Source: Pithys albifrons albifrons
Taxonomy: Eukaryota > Chordata > Aves > Passeriformes > Thamnophilidae
Assembly: GCF_047495875.1 (NCBI RefSeq)
Contig: NC_092458.1
Coordinates: 4,423,939-4,487,938, forward strand
Length of the DNA stretch: 64,000 nt
Direction of reading: 5' to 3'
Shown: positions 12,271 through 56,934 of the stretch, piece by piece
Numbering within the stretch: position 1 is the first letter of the stretch
Layout of the letters: every line of letters begins with the position of its first letter
Notes under the pieces: model-generated
The model's input: the letters and a program-made list of their open reading frames with translations, nothing else
The model's database searches: none
What the model was told of the DNA's origin: nothing
Made by a program: the position numbers and the translations under genes

Positions 12271-12603
12271 GGAGAGGAGAGGAGAGGAGAGGAGAGGAGA
12301 GGAGAGGAGAGGAGAGGAGAGGAGAGGAGAGGAGAGGAGAGGAGAGGAGAGGAGAGGAGAGGAGAGGAGAGGAGAGGAGAGGAGAGGAGAGGAGAGGAGA
12401 GGAGAGGAGAGGAGAGGAGAGGAGAGGAGAGGAGAGGAGAGGAGAGGAGAGGAGAGGAGAGGAGAGGAGAGGAGAGGAGAGGAGAGGAGAGGAGAGGAGA
12501 GGAGAGGAGAGGAGAGGAGAGGAGAGGAGAGGAGAGGAGAGGAGAGGAGAGGAGAGGAGAGGAGAGGAGAGGAGAGGAGAGGAGAGGAGAGGAGAGGAGA
12601 GGA
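12271..12603 (+). repeat. Perfect (GGAGA)n pentanucleotide array, about 66 units
   Basis: 333 bp of uninterrupted GGAGA with no substitution. The strand is purely purine, a sequence type able to form intramolecular triplex (H-DNA). A 135-codon frame on the minus strand is only the translation of the repeat. The same unit occurs on the opposite strand at 40941-41165. Array length in an assembly may differ from the true length. Confidence 0.98.
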
Positions 12604-19538: not shown

Positions 19539-20645
19539 CATAGAATCATAGAGCAGTTTATGTTGTATAAGGATATCTCATTCCAACCCTCCCTGTCATG
19601 GGCAGGGGACCTTCCACTAGACCAGGTTACTGAGAACCTGATTCAGCCTGGCTTTGAATATTCCCAGGGATGAGGAGTCCACAGCCTCTCTGGGCAAGCT
19701 GTTCCAGTGCCTCACAGTCAAGAATTTCAAAGATGAAACCACATTCACAGTAAAGAATTCCTTCCTAATATATAATCTCAACTTATCCTCCTTCAGCTTA
19801 ATGCCATTCCTCCTTGTCCTATCCCTACATGTCCTTCTGAAAAGTCCTTCTTGTAAGTCTCCTTTAGGTACTGGAAAGCTGCTAGAAGGTCTCCCTGGAG
19901 CCTTCTCACCTCCAGTCTGAACAGCCCCAATCCTCTCAGCCATGGATAGATGTTCCAGCCCTCTGATCATCTTCATGGCCTGTCTGTCTTGTGTGAGGGC
20001 CCCAAACCTGGATGCAGTACTCCAGGTGGGGTCTCAACAGAGCAAAGTAGAGGGGGAGAAATACTTTCCTCTACCTGCTGTTCAAGTCTCTTTCAATGCA
20101 GCCCAGGAAGTGGGTGGCTTTCTGGGCTGTGAGCACGCATTGCCAAGTCAGTTGAGCTTCCCATCAGCATGCCCAAGTCCTCCTCTGCAGTGCTAGTCTC
20201 AATCAATTCTCCACCCACCCTGTACTTGTGCTTGGGATTGTCCCTACCCAGATGTAAGACCTTGCACTTGGTCTTGTTGAAGTTCATGAGTTTTGCATGG
20301 GCCCATCCTTCAGGACTGTCCAGGTCCCTCTGGATGGCATCTCTTTCCTCCAGCATGCCAACTACACCACATAGCTTCATGTCATTGACGAACTTGAGGG
20401 TGCACTCAATCCCAAAATCCATGTCACCAACAAAAATGATAAAAAGTGCCAGTCCCAATATCAACCCTCAAGAAACATCACTTGTCACTGGTGTCTACTT
20501 GGAGATCAAGCCAATGACTACAACTCTTTGAATGAGACCATCCAGCCGATTTTTTATCCTCACAGTGGTCCACTCTTCAAATACATGTCTCTCCTATTTA
20601 GAGACAAGGATCTCATGCAGGACAGTGTCAAGTGTTTTGCACTTC
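19539..20645 (-). mobile_element. CR1 LINE copy, about 1.1 kb, 3' end at left
   Basis: The right-to-left order is that of the second half of CR1. Its 3' terminus is the reversed octamer at 19539-19553. Next comes the end of ORF2 on the minus strand at 19617-19976, including a segment with KFLTVRHWNSLPREAVDSSS. The reverse-transcriptase active-site region follows at 20093-20464, and an upstream RT segment runs to about 20645. The active-site box, normally F-A-D-D in CR1, reads F-V-N-D here, so the first catalytic aspartate has been lost. The two open pieces lie in different frames. It is a 5'-truncated dead copy, as is typical of CR1. Confidence 0.87.
19617..20464 (-). pseudogene. Remnant of CR1 ORF2 (reverse transcriptase and C-terminus)
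   Basis: Two frames: 20464-20093 carries the RT palm region with the decayed box FVNDMKL, followed by the CR1 segment around KTKCKVLHLGRDNPKHKY. 19976-19617 carries the C-terminal region (RGLEHLSMAERIGAVQTGGEK and on to ARLNQVLSNLV). Frameshifts and the altered active site make it non-functional. ORF2 normally nicks and reverse-transcribes CR1 RNA at the target. Confidence 0.82.
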
Positions 20646-24365: not shown

Positions 24366-26006
24366 CCTTACTAAATTAGCTTTTTCTCAGAATAACAGGA
24401 ATTATTTTTGTAGGAGAGAGTTTTGCAGAGAGTTTCCACAATCAAGGATGGCAGCAGGTAGTAATACTGCTGTTACATATGATGTGCTTGTGGTCATTTA
24501 AAAAGTACTTTAAGAGCTGGTATGAAGAACAGATAATTATGTCTCAGATTTTCTTAACAGTGGACTGACACCTACATTAAATCATATGCTAGGTTTATAA
24601 ATCATGTATTTCTAGAAATAATGTAATTGATTTATAACTTATGAACATGAATTATAACTATGTTACTGATTTATACACTGTTTGATGATTTCCATAAATC
24701 ATATAACCCATTTGTGAAAAGTATTGGGTGTGATTAATAACGGTGCTACCTTCATTTCAGATATGATGCAACTGTCTTTTGGTTTATGTAATAGATATCA
24801 TAAGATGATATGTTTTACTATCACTTGTGAAGTTTACTTTCCCAAAAGTCACTACAGTATTCTGCCTTAACTCATACTTGATTCATTTGCTTAGGTAGCT
24901 GCTCTCACACCTCTAATCAGATTTGCAACTAACATCTTTTGCTTACTTCAAGTCCTGGTAACAAAAAGAGAATAAGAATCACAGAAAGACCTTGAGAGTA
25001 CATTCATTAAAATGAGTTAAAGAATCCTAAAAATATATTGATTTTTTTTTCTGTCTGATAATATGTCTGCTTATAAACCACAGCAGTTACATTGTATATG
25101 GGTCAACCTTCCACTGGTCAGCCAGCTAAAACTGGTCTAGATTCCTTCTTCTGTTAAGTAATTTATTAAATATTAGGTCACAACCTTGGTGATCAAAATG
25201 TGTTCTGGTATTTCAGGCTTTCTTTTTAACGGTTTTATCAGATAGAAAAAGGCTTAAAATAGGGCATTTCTCTTCCTTACTAATGTTTCTATTTATTTTA
25301 TTTATAGAATTTTGTGCAGGTGTGTAGGTATGTATATGTATTTGAAAAGTTTTCTTGCTTGTTTTCAAAAGAAAATAGACAAAATTGACACTGTAAGAAT
25401 TTTGAACCAGTCTTTGAATTGTTTATATGCTAAGAATTTTTAATGTTTCATTAATTTGAGTTGCTTCATTGAACAAATGAACCTCCAATTACTTTTGTAA
25501 TTTAGGATTCAGTTTAAGATTTGCATTTTATTTTGAAACTGAAACCATTATTTCCTTTTTTAAAACAGTAATAAAGTGTATTGACATGGGGCTAGCAAAT
25601 TCTTTTCTGATACTATCCTTGGTTTTGCTTGGACTCAATGAAAAAAAAAAGTGAAAGCCAGGTAAATGTTTAAAAGCAAATATCATTTGTAGGTAAATGA
25701 ACGTGCCTACACAGAATTTTAGGTGGGGTTTTTTTCCAAATCTTACTTGGGTCTTTTAGTGAATATAAAGACAATAAAGCATACTTGGTTTAATCCTTAA
25801 GTTCACTGTACTTGTACAAGCCCCGAAGTGGCTAAAAGCACTAACATGGCTACATTCATAGAAAGCTGAAGCTTATTAAAATATTCTTAGCTTGTAAATC
25901 TCCACCAAAATACTCAGTGGAAGTATAAAATCCAATTTTATGCCAATCATGCTGTTCACATCTTTAAGAAGTTTTTGCTTCATCTAAAACTCTTAACTTT
26001 GCATCA
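24366..26006. other. Unique DNA, nothing recognised
   Basis: AT-rich, no repeats or frames that I can support. Confidence 0.45.
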
Positions 26007-26310
26007 GCTACGGCCATGGCACCCTGACACCCAATCCCATCAGATCTCGGAAGCTAAGCAGGGTCAGCCCTGGTTAGTACTTGGATGGGAGACCTCCTGG
26101 GAATAATGGGGGCTGTAGGTTCTAGTCCTGAGGACTTCACTGTCACCGTCTAAGCTCGCTCGGCCGTGGCAGATGAACCTTAGGAGCAAAGAGTGTGAAG
26201 TATTTCATGCATGCTGTGCCTCACCTAAAAAATCCACTGCGCAGGCTGGAAGGGTTCACCCACGTGGGTAGAGCTCTTCCCAAATCTTCATTCACAAAGC
26301 CTAGCCATGA
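26007..26310 (+). mobile_element. 5S-rRNA-derived SINE with RTE-like 3' tail, copy 1
   Basis: The first ~120 bp are a 5S rRNA derivative: GCTACGGCC at the start, GATCTCGGAAGCTAAGCAGG at 26043-26062, TTAGTACTTGGATGGGAGAC at 26074-26093 and GGGGGCTGTAGG at 26108-26119. The 5S internal control region (A box about 26051-26066, C box about 26080-26100) is well kept, so Pol III type 1 transcription is plausible in the parent. A ~130-bp body follows that is shared with the copy at 42738-43056, including CTCGCTCGGCCGTGGCAGAT. The last ~50 bp (from about 26260) match the 3' terminus of the RTE LINE at 29375-29428, ending in AGCCATGA. CpG positions in this tail have decayed to CA/TG. The target duplication is not clear; AACTTTGCATC before and AATTTTTTACATC after are only similar. 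Confidence 0.85.
26051..26100 (+). promoter_or_regulatory. 5S-type internal Pol III promoter in the SINE head
   Basis: The A-box block AAGCTAAGCAGGGTCAG and the C-box block ACTTGGATGGGAGACCTCCT sit at 5S-like spacing. In 5S genes these bind TFIIIA and TFIIIC. Function here is inferred from sequence only. Confidence 0.6.
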
Positions 26311-28902: not shown

Positions 28903-29374
28903 CATGGGTTCACCTAGGTGGGCCTAAATTTGTGTTTTTGAAGTTCAGACTAGGCCTGGAGCTGTCAGCTGATTCGAGCTGGGCTGAGCTAACAGCTGAC
29001 TTCATCTAGCCAATAGTGGCTTATTCCATACCATATTACGACATCATTTTCCAGGGAAGTAGAAGTCAGTGTGGGAGTGGTTTGGTCAGTCAACCCACAG
29101 CATTCTTGCTGAGAGGACACACACATGGTGCAGTCCCAGGAGAGATGGGGAGGCCCAGCAGTTGTTTTGAGAAGTAAAATGTTTGTTGTTGGTTCTTCTC
29201 TTTCTGCTCGGGTCTGGCTCTCTGGGGACTGTCTTTTAAGATAATTTGGGGTTAAAATGGTGAGATTTGTGTGTGTACTGAGAAGTGAGAAACTGTTCCT
29301 TGCTGTGTCCAGCTTGTGTGAGCGTGTATTGGTACTTTCTTTTAATGTTCTCTTTCTTTCTGTAAAGTATATGT

Positions 29375-29428
29375 CATCATCATCATGGCCAGGCTTCGCG
29401 AACGAAGATTTGGGAAGGGCACTACCCA
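29375..29428 (-). repeat. RTE 3' terminal region shared with 5S-SINEs
   Basis: On the minus strand: CGTGGGTAGTGCCCTTCCCA, then AATCTTCGTTCGCGAAGCCT, then GGCCATGATGATGATG. The same order of bases ends both SINEs (26257-26310 and 42750-42803 reversed). In LINE biology this is the segment recognised by the reverse transcriptase. TTCGTTCGCGAA contains the near-palindrome TTCGCGAA, suggesting a small hairpin. Confidence 0.82.
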
Positions 29429-30755
29429 CGCTTGCTGCAAGCTGCTGGTGGCTAAAAAGGCCGATACGGGATAGGCAGGTCCGGTCACAAAAGGCACAGC
29501 GGAACGTCTCCCTGGGTGACATTGGCAAGGAACGGTTCTTTCTGTGTTGTCTTTTCTCCTCAAGACTGACTCTCCGTGCATTCTCAAAGGAAGCAGCAGC
29601 GTCGTGAATGGTGTGTCTCCATGAATCCCGATTGGAGGCCAGAGTGGACCATTGGTGGCAGTCAATATGGCCAAGGCTGAGGTGTTGTTTCAGGGAGTCC
29701 TTGTATCTCTTCTTCGGGGCTCCTCTCTTGCAGCAGCTGGTGGCGAGTTCACCATAGAGCACAATCTTTGGGAGGCGGTGGGTGATCCTCCATCCTGGAG
29801 ATGTGCCCTGCCCAGCGCAGCTGCTTTCTCATCTGCATGGCCTCGATACTGCTGACCCCTGCCTGTTCAGAACAGACACATTGGTCACGTAATCAGACCA
29901 GTGGATGTTTAGGATTGAACGGAGGCAGCGCTGATGGAAGTGTTCAAGAAGCCGCAGGTGGTGGCAGTAGATGACCCATGATTCAGACCCATATGAAAGA
30001 GTAGACAGTACAATGGCTCTGTAGACACTGATCTTTGTACTTTTCTTCAGGTGTTTATTGGACCAGACTCTTTTATGGAGTTTTCCAAAGGCTTTGTATG
30101 CCTTTGCCAGCCTGTTGTCTATCTCTTTGTCAATCTTACCCTCTGAGGAAATGATACTTCCCAGATAGGTGAACTGCTGGACTGACTTAAGCTCTGAATT
30201 GCCTATGGTGATGTGAGGATGATGGAAGACTTCTTGAGGTGCAGGTTGGTAGAGAACTTCCGTCTTCTTCAGGCTGACTTCCAGTCCAAAAAGCTCAGCA
30301 GCCTCTGCAAAGCAGGATGTGAAGCGCTGCGGAGCTGCTTCTCTGTGAGCAACGAGGGCGGCATCATCAGCAAAAAGCAGCTCACAGACAAGGTGATTCA
30401 GGGTCTTGGTGTGGGCCTTCAGTTGCCTTAGGTTGAATAGGCTTCCATTGGTATGATATCGGATGTAGATGCTGTTTTCTTCTTCAAGGTCTGCTGTGGC
30501 TCTTTGGAGCATCATGCTGAAGAAGATTGTGAATAGAGTTGGTGCAAGAGGGCAACCTTGTTTCACACCGTTGGTTATTGGAAAGGGCTCAGAGAGCGCA
30601 TCGCCATATCTGACTTTTCCATGCTGATCCTCATGTAGCAGGATGATCATTTTGAGGAACTTGGGGGGACATCCTAAACATTCCAAGATCTGCCACAGGC
30701 CTTTTCTGCTCACAGTGTCGAAAGCTTTGGTGAGGTCAACGAAGGTTACATAGAG
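29425..30755 (-). pseudogene. RTE LINE reverse transcriptase remnant
   Basis: The open frame on 30899-29829 encodes LINE protein only from about residue 50 on; its first ~47 residues are read from LTR B. Visible RT motifs, numbered in that 356-codon frame: VTFVDLTKAFDTV (about 51-63), GVKQGCPLAPTLF (111-123) and the catalytic FADD (176-179), all intact. The thumb-like region with TYLGSIISSEGKID follows. The frame breaks near 29845, and again near 29770. It then continues in the frame 29762-29430 with GAPKKRYKDSL and a cysteine/histidine motif (C89-x2-C92-x12-H105 of that frame). One further missing base hides the last cysteine of the motif and a stop at about 29425. The enzyme would reverse-transcribe its RNA at a nicked target. 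This copy is dead. Confidence 0.83.
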
Positions 30756-30903
30756 AAGTATATGTAGTTTTAGCATAAACGTGGGTTGAAGTTTGTTTTT
30801 TTCCTTCCCCTCTCTTTTCCTCCCTTTCCTTGGTGTTGGGAGGGAGGCTCTGGCCCTGTACTTGGAGGGTTGGCAGTTTGCCAGCTCAAACCAAGACACC
30901 TGG

Positions 30904-31451: not shown

Positions 31452-32079
31452 TGTCTTGGTTTGAGATAAGCAACTGCCAAGCCCCCCAAGCACAGAGAGA
31501 AAAGCCTTCCTCCTAACACCAGGGAAAGGGAGGAAAAGAGAGGGGAAAGGAAAAAAAACACTTCAAACTGCATTTATACTAAATCTACATATATTTTTCA
31601 CAGAAAACAAAGAGACAATTAGAAGAGAGTACAAATATACACTCACACAAGTCTGCAACAACAAGTTCCCCACCTCAACTTCTTAACGTACACACAAATT
31701 CTACTGTCTTAACTACACATTGCTTAAGAAGAAGCTTATTCCCCAGGGGGACAAACCCAAGCAGAAAGGAGAGACCCAGAATAACACAGTTTACTTTCCT
31801 GAGGTACCCTGTGAGCCAGTGGTGGGCCTGGTCCTCTCCATCCCCCCTGGGACAGCATCGTGCGTCCTCCCAAGAGGAGGGCTGAGAAGCGACTGCCTTA
31901 ACCACTCCCACACTGGTTCCTACTTCCCTGGAGATGATGTCATAATGTGGTATGGAATACAAAGTTACTGGCTAGAAGAGGTCAGCTGTTAGCTCAGCCC
32001 AGCTCAAGTCAGCTGACAGCTTCAGCCTAGTCCACACTTCAGAGCCCAAATTTAGGCCCACCTCGGTGAACCCATAACA
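31452..32079 (-). mobile_element. Solo LTR B, copy 2 (5-bp target duplication)
   Basis: 628 bp, plus-strand ends TGTCTTGGTTTGAG and AACCCATAACA, flanked by exact ATAAG (31447-31451 and 32080-32084). Nearly identical in layout to copies at 35405 and 56166. Overlapping 90- and 95-codon frames on opposite strands are not genes. Confidence 0.9.
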
Positions 32080-35399: not shown

Positions 35400-35404
35400 T
35401 GGAG

Positions 35405-36031
35405 TGTTATGGGCTCACCTAGGTGGGCCTAAATTTGGGCTCTGAAGTTTGGACTAGGCTGAAGCTGTCAGCTGACTTGAGCTGGGCTGAGCTAACAGCT
35501 GACCTCTTCTAGCCAGTAACTTTGTATTCCATACCACATTATGACATCATCTCCAGGGCAGTAGGAACCAGTGTGGGAGTGGTTAAGGCAGTCGCTTCTC
35601 AGCCCTCCTCTTGGGAGGACACACGATGCTGTCCCAGGGGGGATGGAGAGGACCAGGCCCACCACTGGCTCACAGGGTACCTCAGGAAAGTAAAATGTGT
35701 TGTTCTGGGTCTCTCCTTTCTGCTTGAGTTTGTCTCCCTGGGGAATAAGTCTTTCCTTAAGTAATGTGTAGTTAGGACAGTAGAATTTGTGTGTTCGTTA
35801 AGAAGTTGAAGTGGGGAACTTGTTGTTGCAGACTTGTGTGAGTGTATATTTGTACTCTCTTCTGATTGTCTCTTTCTTTCTGTAAAAATATATGTAGCTT
35901 TAGTGTAAATGCAGTTTGAAGTGTTTTTTTTTCCTTTCCCCTCTCTTTTCCTCCCTTTCCCTGGTGTTAGGAGGGAGGCTTTTCTCTCTGTGCTTGGGGA
36001 GGTTGGCAGTTGCTTATCTCAAACCAAGACA
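35405..36031 (+). mobile_element. Solo LTR B, copy 3 (5-bp target duplication)
   Basis: 627 bp from TGTTATGGGCTCACC to CAAACCAAGACA, flanked by exact TGGAG (35400-35404 and 36032-36036). It shows the full family-B sequence that allows the interrupted copy at 28242 to be reconstructed by comparison. TATATGTAG near 35888 marks the position where the RTE LINE entered the other copy. Confidence 0.9.
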
Positions 36032-40934: not shown

Positions 40935-41217
40935 TCCTCCTCTCCTCTCCTCTCCTCTCCTCTCCTCTCCTCTCCTCTCCTCTCCTCTCCTCTCCTCTCC
41001 TCTCCTCTCCTCTCCTCTCCTCTCCTCTCCTCTCCTCTCCTCTCCTCTCCTCTCCTCTCCTCTCCTCTCCTCTCCTCTCCTCTCCTCTCCTCTCCTCTCC
41101 TCTCCTCTCCTCTCCTCTCCTCTCCTCTCCTCTCCTCTCCTCTCCTCTCCTCTCCTCTCCTCTCCCTCCCCTCCCCTCCCCTCCTCTCCCCTCCCTTCCC
41201 CTCTCCTCTCCTCTCCC
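40935..41217 (-). repeat. (TCTCC)n pentanucleotide array, about 45 perfect units plus degenerate end
   Basis: The perfect part is 40941-41165; units then change to CTCCC and mixed forms to 41217 and finish in a T-rich run. This is the same motif as the array at 12271 in reverse complement. The 115- and 116-codon frames across it are translations of the repeat. Confidence 0.97.
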
Positions 41218-42620: not shown

Positions 42621-42737
42621 CCCAATGTCTAAGTGTATTAGAAAGGAATAATAAATGAGTTGCATTGCTGTGTTAGGTAGCAGTTAGAAAGAAAGGGGTT
42701 TAGCTATGGTGGCGACACTAACTTCATTGTCTGTCTT

Positions 42738-43056
42738 GTGTATGTATGTATGTGTGGCCAAACTTCGCGAACAAAGATTTGGGAAGGGCTGTCCCCACGT
42801 GGGTGTGCCCTTCCAGCCTGCACAGTGGATTTTAGGTGAGGCTCAGCGTGTGCAGAACTGGCCCCACCATTTCAGTCCTGAGGTTCATCTGCCACGGCCG
42901 AGCGAGCTTGGACAGTGCCAGTGAAGTCCTCAAGACTAGAACCTACAGCCCCCGGCATTTCCCAGAAGGTCTTCCATCCAAGTACTAATCCGGGGCTGAC
43001 CCTGCTTAGCTTCCGAGATCTGACGGGATTGGATGTCAGGGAGGCATTTAACTGCC
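42738..43056 (-). mobile_element. 5S-rRNA-derived SINE with RTE-like tail, copy 2 (13-bp target duplication)
   Basis: A full SINE of 319 bp, flanked by the exact 13-bp repeat CATTGTCTGTCTT (42725-42737 and 43057-43069), which is proof of LINE-type retroposition. On the minus strand it starts near 43056 with a degenerate 5S 5' end. It then has GATCTCGGAAGCTAAGCAGG (43021-43002), TTAGTACTTGGATGGAAGAC, and GGGGGCTGTAGGTTCTAGT. The ~130-bp body is shared with copy 1. The final ~50 bp contain CCCTTCCCAAATCTTTGTTC and GCGAAGTTTGGCC, which match the RTE LINE 3' end. The tail is a short (ACAT)n/(ATAC)n repeat at 42738-42754. Two CpGs of the TTCGCGAA core survive, suggesting it is younger than copy 1. 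Confidence 0.92.
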
Positions 43057-43069
43057 CATTGTCTGTCTT

Positions 43070-56165: not shown

Positions 56166-56791
56166 TGTCTTGGTTTGAGATAAGCAACTGCCAACCCCCC
56201 CAAGCACAGAGAGAAAAGCCTCCCTCCTAACACCAGGGAAAGGGAGGAAAAGAGAGGGGAAAGAAAAAAAACACTTCAAACCTCATTTATACTAAATCTA
56301 CATATATTTTTCACAGAAAGAAAGAGACAATTAGAAGAGAGTACAAATATACACTCACACAAGTCTGCAACAAAAAGTTCCCCACCTCAGCTTCATAACG
56401 AACACACAAATTCTACTGTCTTAACTACACATTACTTAAGAAAAGACTTATTCCCCAGGGAGACAAACTCAAGCAGAAAGGAGAGACCCAGAACAACGCA
56501 TTTGACTTTCCTGAGACACCCTGTGAGCCAGTGGTGGGCCTGGTCCTCTCCATCCCCCCTGGGACAGCATCATGTGTCCTCCCAAGAGGAGGGCTGAGAA
56601 GCGACTGCCTTAACCACTCCCACACTGGTTCCTGCTTCCCTGGAGATGATGTCATAATGTGGTATGGAATACAAAGTTACTGGCTAGAAGAGGTCAGCTG
56701 TTAGCTCAGCCCAGCTCAAGTCAGCTGACAGCTTCAGCCTAGTCTGAACTCCAGAGCCCAAATTTAGGCCCACCTAGGTGAACCCATAACA
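56166..56791 (-). mobile_element. Solo LTR B, copy 4 (5-bp target duplication)
   Basis: 626 bp, plus-strand TGTCTTGGTTTGAG to AACCCATAACA, flanked by exact CTATA (56161-56165 and 56792-56796). Very close to the copies at 31452 and 35405. Confidence 0.9.
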
Positions 56792-56934
56792 CTATACTAT
56801 GTAAGTAGGTTTTTTTTCTGTTGAAATAAAAATCATTAATTGTAATCGGGTATTTAACAAAATTAATTTTAATCAAAAGACAAGTATAGGATAAAGTAGA
56901 ATGTGAAATGTCAGAGAAAAGTTAGAGATATTGT

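Follow-up and report, generated by a model that had tools for sequence, protein, structure and literature searches.

Structure of the SINE at 42738-43056

The window (the whole stretch of 64,000 nucleotides that was analysed) carries a complete SINE of 319 bp at 42738-43056 on the minus strand, which lies between perfect 13-bp target-site duplications (TSDs). The duplicated sequence, CATTGTCTGTCTT on the plus strand, is identical at 13 of 13 positions between 42725-42737, on the 3' side of the SINE, and 43057-43069, on its 5' side. An earlier note on this DNA had placed at exactly these coordinates a SINE with a 5S rRNA head, an RTE tail and a perfect 13-bp target duplication, and this description proved right, the unit being read on the minus strand.

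The first 120 nt of the unit (42937-43056, minus strand) match the Rfam 5S rRNA model (RF00001) and form a 5S rRNA-derived head with an internal pol III control region. This head was also aligned to a vertebrate 5S rRNA sequence. The Rfam match itself spans 42940-43059 on the minus strand (54.7 bits against a gathering score of 38, E 1.1e-08), and its last 3 nt extend into the TSD. Short length and a head taken from a small RNA gene, which are generic features of SINEs, are thus both present. As judged from the sequence, the SINE would be transcribed by pol III from its 5S head; the motif TTTT, which was looked for in the consensus of 40 genome copies, was absent.

The head is followed by a body (42797-42936, minus strand) and a tail (42755-42799, minus strand), which overlap by a CGT that they share at their junction. 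A hairpin with one arm from the 5'UTR part and one from the 3'UTR part of the unit (GGAAGGGC...GCCCTTCC) is predicted at 42782-42814 on the minus strand. The unit ends in a (CATA)n-like short repeat (42738-42754, minus strand), read from the sequence, and a similar terminal repeat is present in most of the 40 genome copies.

The probable partner LINE and the source of body and tail

A 5'-truncated copy of the LINE AviRTE lies in the same window at 29375-30755 on the minus strand, with an RVT_1 domain (Pfam, E 1.4e-19) and a TSD (AAGTATATGT) at 29365-29374 and 30756-30765. Three of ten AviRTE primers are present in this copy with 1-2 mismatches each, and it is 95.6% identical over 1374 columns to a full-length AviRTE of ~4.0 kb (TSD AAGTAAAGAA) carried by a sampled 10-kb stretch of the host genome (L055). 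The ten primers given by Suh et al. 2016 were all located on L055, in order and with 1-4 mismatches each. The ORF of L055 consists of two stop-to-stop pieces, which were scanned separately and without frame repair, one containing an endonuclease domain (Exo_endo_phos) and the other a reverse transcriptase (RT) domain (RVT_1). Thus, L055 possesses the features by which AviRTE is recognized, namely endonuclease and RT, a long ORF, a long 5'UTR, a short 3'UTR and the primer sites. A search of the genome for the primer AviRTEfull-1F with at most one mismatch gave 0 matches, a count that is uninformative on full-length LINEs because L055 itself has three mismatches there.

Among the 120 listed of 3382 RT relatives, the only named birds are Manacus candei, Pseudopipra pipra and Myiozetetes cayanensis, which we take to be suboscines. 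Their RT identities are 82%, 81% and 85%, respectively, with 64-72% of the query covered, and the top of the same 120 relatives is occupied by entries that are unnamed or come from aquatic invertebrates, at ~70-75%.

The tail of the SINE corresponds to the AviRTE 3'UTR, matching 29386-29430 of the window LINE at 39 of 45 positions (E 2e-08). It had been described as identical in order to the 3' end of the RTE LINE; the order stands, whereas the identity does not. The body, for its part, had been regarded as of unknown origin, and this has to be revised, as it is a 5'UTR fragment of the same LINE. Indeed, positions 121-260 of the unit are 85.9% identical over 142 columns to the 5'UTR of L055 (8634-8774 of that stretch), and the site of the published 5'UTR primer AviRTEint-F is present in this SINE copy with three mismatches. 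In terms of sequence, the SINE is a 5S head placed on an internally deleted AviRTE. Two other candidates were rejected: a separate body sequence of unrelated source, on the match to the AviRTE 5'UTR of L055, and CR1 as the partner LINE, on the tail and the target signature, both of which are those of RTE. A 26-nt core of the body gave 0 matches against viral contigs.

Genome-wide copies and target-site duplications

The host genome (1.144 Gb, 53 contigs) was searched with the unit, and the best-scoring 40 of 4460 first-look candidates were scored, a choice which is biased toward the copies nearest to the window copy and whose figures therefore give no family age. All of these 40 copies are at least 95% identical to the unit (100% for the window copy and 95-97% for the others), and their matches run from position 1-15 of the 319-nt query to position 315-319. 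The 39 other copies were taken with 300-bp flanks for alignment and TSD scanning. Because all 323 consensus columns are filled in 40 of the 40 aligned copies, the junctions between the parts are constant among them. Divergence from the consensus ranges from 1.2 to 6.5% in these best-scoring 40, where the outermost columns may hold a few flanking bases.

Exact TSDs of 8-14 nt were found in 36 of the 40 best-scoring copies, compared with 14 of 1560 pairings (0.9%) in a control that combined left and right flanks from different copies. In L019 and L021, both among the 36, the TSDs consist of AT repeats and count as weak evidence, and the match in L021 lies 20 nt beyond the 3' end; no exact TSD of at least 8 nt was found in the remaining four (L029, L033, L036 and L038). 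In addition, 20 sampled 10-kb stretches, placed at round coordinates on 12 contigs, contained one full-length LINE and two SINE copies, one of them without the first ~30 nt of the unit. Two copies per 200 kb would correspond to ~11,000 copies, a figure of very large uncertainty (~1,400 to 41,000, our own Poisson estimate). Many dispersed copies with TSDs, another generic feature of SINEs, are therefore found here.

5S pseudogenes are common in vertebrates, and the locus might be read as a dispersed 5S pseudogene or as a chimera formed by chance beside RTE debris, with no transposing family behind it. Such an origin is extremely improbable in view of the identical junctions of at least 40 near-full-length copies, of TSDs in 36 of 40 and of a common target signature, and a 5S pseudogene was rejected on these grounds. 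The genome search, proposed in the earlier note as a check, thus yielded many copies of constant three-part structure with varied TSDs (8-14 nt), that is, 40 near-full-length copies rather than one or two or copies with differing junctions. The reading that the element moved by target-primed reverse transcription is upheld.

Target-site signature

Targets of the RTE clade bear a Tn-TA signature, with three T ~10 nt upstream and T/A at the nick, the A being the first TSD base. At the 36 sites with TSDs, T/A was present at the nick in 21 without re-anchoring (background 5.9%) and in 28 after a one-base shift of the TSDs starting with TA, a shift which is our own choice and in which the T may belong to the (CATA)n-like tail of the SINE. 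In the unshifted sites, T occurs at -13, -12 and -11 in 26, 25 and 14 of 36, respectively (background 28%), and TT occurs within -15 to -10 at 24 of 36 sites versus 16 and 11 of 36 in two adjacent control windows. The first TSD base is A in 23 and T in 11 of the 36. Both AviRTE copies with a readable TSD, the one in the window and that of L055, show TTT at -14 to -12 and T/A, and the nick of SINE copy L064 has the T-run with C/A instead of T/A. These data indicate that the targets of the SINE bear the RTE-clade Tn-TA signature.

Tn-TA has been reported for Bov-B LINEs of squamates and cattle, Sauria SINEs and plant RTEs, while in birds it "remains to be elucidated" according to the available text of the same 2026 paper (PMC13295347), and the newness of the bird signature is taken from this single sentence. 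Our results supply this signature for an RTE/SINE pair of a bird, with a Tn-TA pattern as in reptiles, cattle and plants.

A second window copy and subfamilies

A second copy of the SINE, with a LINE-like tail, is located at 26006-26307 on the plus strand; it is absent from the earlier note. Rfam 5S_rRNA matches its head at 26006-26121 on the plus strand (82.2 bits, E 6e-16), and 26016-26307 aligns to the first copy with 249 of 297 positions (84%) identical over head, body and tail. The order of the parts and their junctions are alike in both window copies. The start of the 5S part is more canonical in the second copy, and primer AviRTEint-F matches it at 26127-26147 with 0 mismatches. No clear TSD was found for this copy, the longest exact match being 4 nt, besides windows of 8-9 nt with a mismatch. 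Its divergence from the young-copy consensus is 19.7%, compared with 3.7% for the first copy, and it is either older or a member of another subfamily.

Two variants of the head occur in the host genome. Both window copies and the young consensus lack the same 3 nt of the 5S sequence in their heads and have identical head/body junctions. The LINE-type tail (GCC..AGCC.TGA...) is kept by the second window copy, L064 and L054, and L064 combines it with a young-type head start. In most young copies, GTTTGGCCATACATAC replaces the LINE-type tail, and the young consensus could therefore form a longer stem at its end (CCAAA-T-CTTCG-TTCG-CGAAG-TTTGG, as judged by eye); for the window copy, a comparable stem is predicted. 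Three young copies (L016, L026 and L040) carry TGAGCCACACAC at the 3' end where others have GGCCATACATAC, and may represent a further subfamily with another terminal repeat.

Identity of the family

In the available text of Suh et al. 2016 (PMC4844689), five AviRTE-mobilised SINEs are described, all with a bipartite tail of 5'UTR and 3'UTR, whose emergence was repeated and lineage-specific, with different heads on one bipartite tail plan. Among these five, the legend of their Fig. 1 gives a 5S rRNA head for GymnSINE of the antbird lineage alone. Three features of GymnSINE are present here, namely the 5S rRNA head, the AviRTE 5'UTR part in the tail (85.9% over 142 columns, and the AviRTEint-F site) and the AviRTE 3'UTR at the 3' end (39/45 to the window LINE). 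The partner is likewise AviRTE and the host probably a suboscine, and no difference was found on comparison with the description in that text. We conclude that the element, with three parts of traceable source, constant junctions in the examined copies, TSDs, a target signature and many copies, is a GymnSINE-type SINE, i.e. a pol III-type non-autonomous retroposon mobilised by AviRTE (probability about 0.88). On its anatomy and primer sites, set against the published description, the family is very probably the published GymnSINE itself, and the host would belong to the antbird lineage. The guess in the earlier note that a similar SINE might have been reported alongside AviRTE is therefore borne out, whereas its suggestion of a distinct system has to be given up, since the anatomy is that of GymnSINE, which stands beside four other AviRTE-mobilised SINEs (PMC4844689). 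The family as such is ordinary, being a SINE type from the literature that is confirmed here in a large-contig assembly; more weight falls on the target signature and on the UTR pairing at the junction. In the literature searched, the name GymnSINE occurred only in Suh et al. 2016 (PMC4844689), and the available text of PMC8665684 holds nothing on a 5S/AviRTE SINE.

Alternatively, a 5S head may have been gained separately in another AviRTE-bearing bird, for instance one of some other suboscine line, which would make the element a 5S/AviRTE SINE independent of GymnSINE. The two head variants in the host genome are consistent with such a gain, but the 3-nt 5S deletion and the head/body junction shared by the window copies and the young consensus argue against it, as does the finding that the named birds among the 120 listed of 3382 RT relatives are the three presumed suboscines. 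The repeated, lineage-specific emergences with differing heads on the same tail plan in Suh et al. would also allow for a separate gain, yet among the five SINEs in their Fig. 1 legend only that of the antbird lineage has a 5S head, and we consider this alternative unlikely.

For a GymnSINE-type element, the 5S rRNA-derived head would give an internal promoter, and the remainder is an internally deleted AviRTE with ~140 nt of 5'UTR joined to a ~45-nt 3'UTR. The endonuclease and RT of AviRTE would recognize the 3'UTR of the SINE RNA, which would be inserted by target-primed reverse transcription at T-run...T/A sites, giving TSDs of 8-14 bp. The SINE would thus probably be mobilised in trans by AviRTE.

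Comparison with known systems

SINE3 of zebrafish, reportedly described by Kapitonov and Jurka in 2003, is said to have a 5S-derived pol III head, as here, and differs in its fish host and in its tail, which is said to come from a CR1-like LINE. The head of Sauria SINEs is of the tRNA type. According to the available text of PMC13295347, the Bov-B/Sauria SINE pair of reptile hosts has an RTE-clade partner and the Tn-TA signature in common with the present pair. Sauria SINEs carry an (ACCTTT)n 3' repeat and have TSDs starting with T, whereas the repeat found here is (CATA)n-like and the TSDs mostly start with A, as do those of Bov-B. HaSE3 of the moth Helicoverpa armigera likewise unites a 5S rRNA head with an RTE-derived 3' tail, but its host is an insect and its body is common with the tRNA SINE HaSE1, a LINE 5'UTR being unreported in the available text (PMC3272025). 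ManaSINE1, ManaSINE2, BuceSINE and MeloSINE follow the same bipartite AviRTE tail plan as the present SINE, and in the available description their heads are tRNA-Glu, a GC-rich sequence or 28S rRNA in contrast to 5S here (PMC4844689).

UTR pairing and a possible origin of the bipartite tail

At the internal junction of the SINE, CGT is common to the 5'UTR (CACCCACGT) and the 3'UTR (CGTGGG). Pairing was computed on one LINE with a 5'UTR (L055). Apart from a single mismatch and a single bulge, the 5'UTR at the junction (GAAGGGTTCACCCACGT) pairs throughout with the 3'UTR (GCGTGGGTAGTGCCCTTC), at -26.8 kcal/mol. No other site of the LINE pairs as strongly with the 3'UTR arm, the next being at -21.9 kcal/mol for a 19-nt arm and -23.7 kcal/mol for a 30-nt arm, and none of 120 random 19-nt LINE segments (including 30 with G+C of at least 11), scanned in steps of 3, had an equally strong partner elsewhere in the element. 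When the 5'UTR was shuffled with its dinucleotides preserved, 5 of 200 shuffles reached the same duplex energy; they were scanned in steps of 2 and the real sequence in steps of 1, slightly favouring the real sequence. A strong local hairpin of the two arms is predicted in the young consensus, the second window copy and L064, and was not predicted in L054. For an 87-nt stretch of the window copy, the folding z-score is -2.18, with 8 of 200 shuffles being as stable.

As the junction lies at the strongest UTR pairing site of the LINE, a structure-guided template jump is suggested, and it is plausible but unproven that template switching at the closed end of a UTR-paired loop made the body and tail. 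In a broader model, which we hold to be possible but doubtful, UTR-UTR pairing would loop the AviRTE RNA, and an RT jump across the closed base would remove the ORF and leave a two-UTR hairpin, a composite which may be recognized by the RT. If true, looping would explain why bipartite 5'UTR/3'UTR tails recur in AviRTE SINEs with unrelated heads, and a structural reason for this common tail would bear on the old question of how SINEs originate from LINEs.

For this origin step, we lean toward a deletion of the LINE at a random CGT microhomology, with the strong UTR pairing there being coincidental, a grading which concerns the origin step only and is not additive with that of the family's identity. 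CGT is present on both sides of the junction and falls inside the pairing blocks, the pairing was computed for a single 5'UTR-bearing LINE, the real duplex energy is equalled in 5 of 200 shuffles, and SINE copy L054 has lost the fold, all of which fit a random deletion. Against it stand the rank of the junction site as the best partner of the 3'UTR arm (-26.8 versus -21.9 and -23.7 kcal/mol) and the 0 of 120 random 19-nt segments with a partner that strong elsewhere.

Other features of the window

The open frame at 19617-20033 presumably resembles a 3' fragment of a CR1 LINE and gave no Pfam match. Two long five-base G/A repeat arrays lie on opposite strands at 12271-12589 and 40937-41165, with 229 nt perfectly complementary between them. 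LTR-like repeats of ~480 nt, 94-96% alike and in direct or inverted orientation, are located at 31605-32079, 35403-35888 and 56308-56793. The window AviRTE (29375-30755) lies between 28956-29366 and 30847-30899, two segments with matches to LTR-like repeats at other places in the window.
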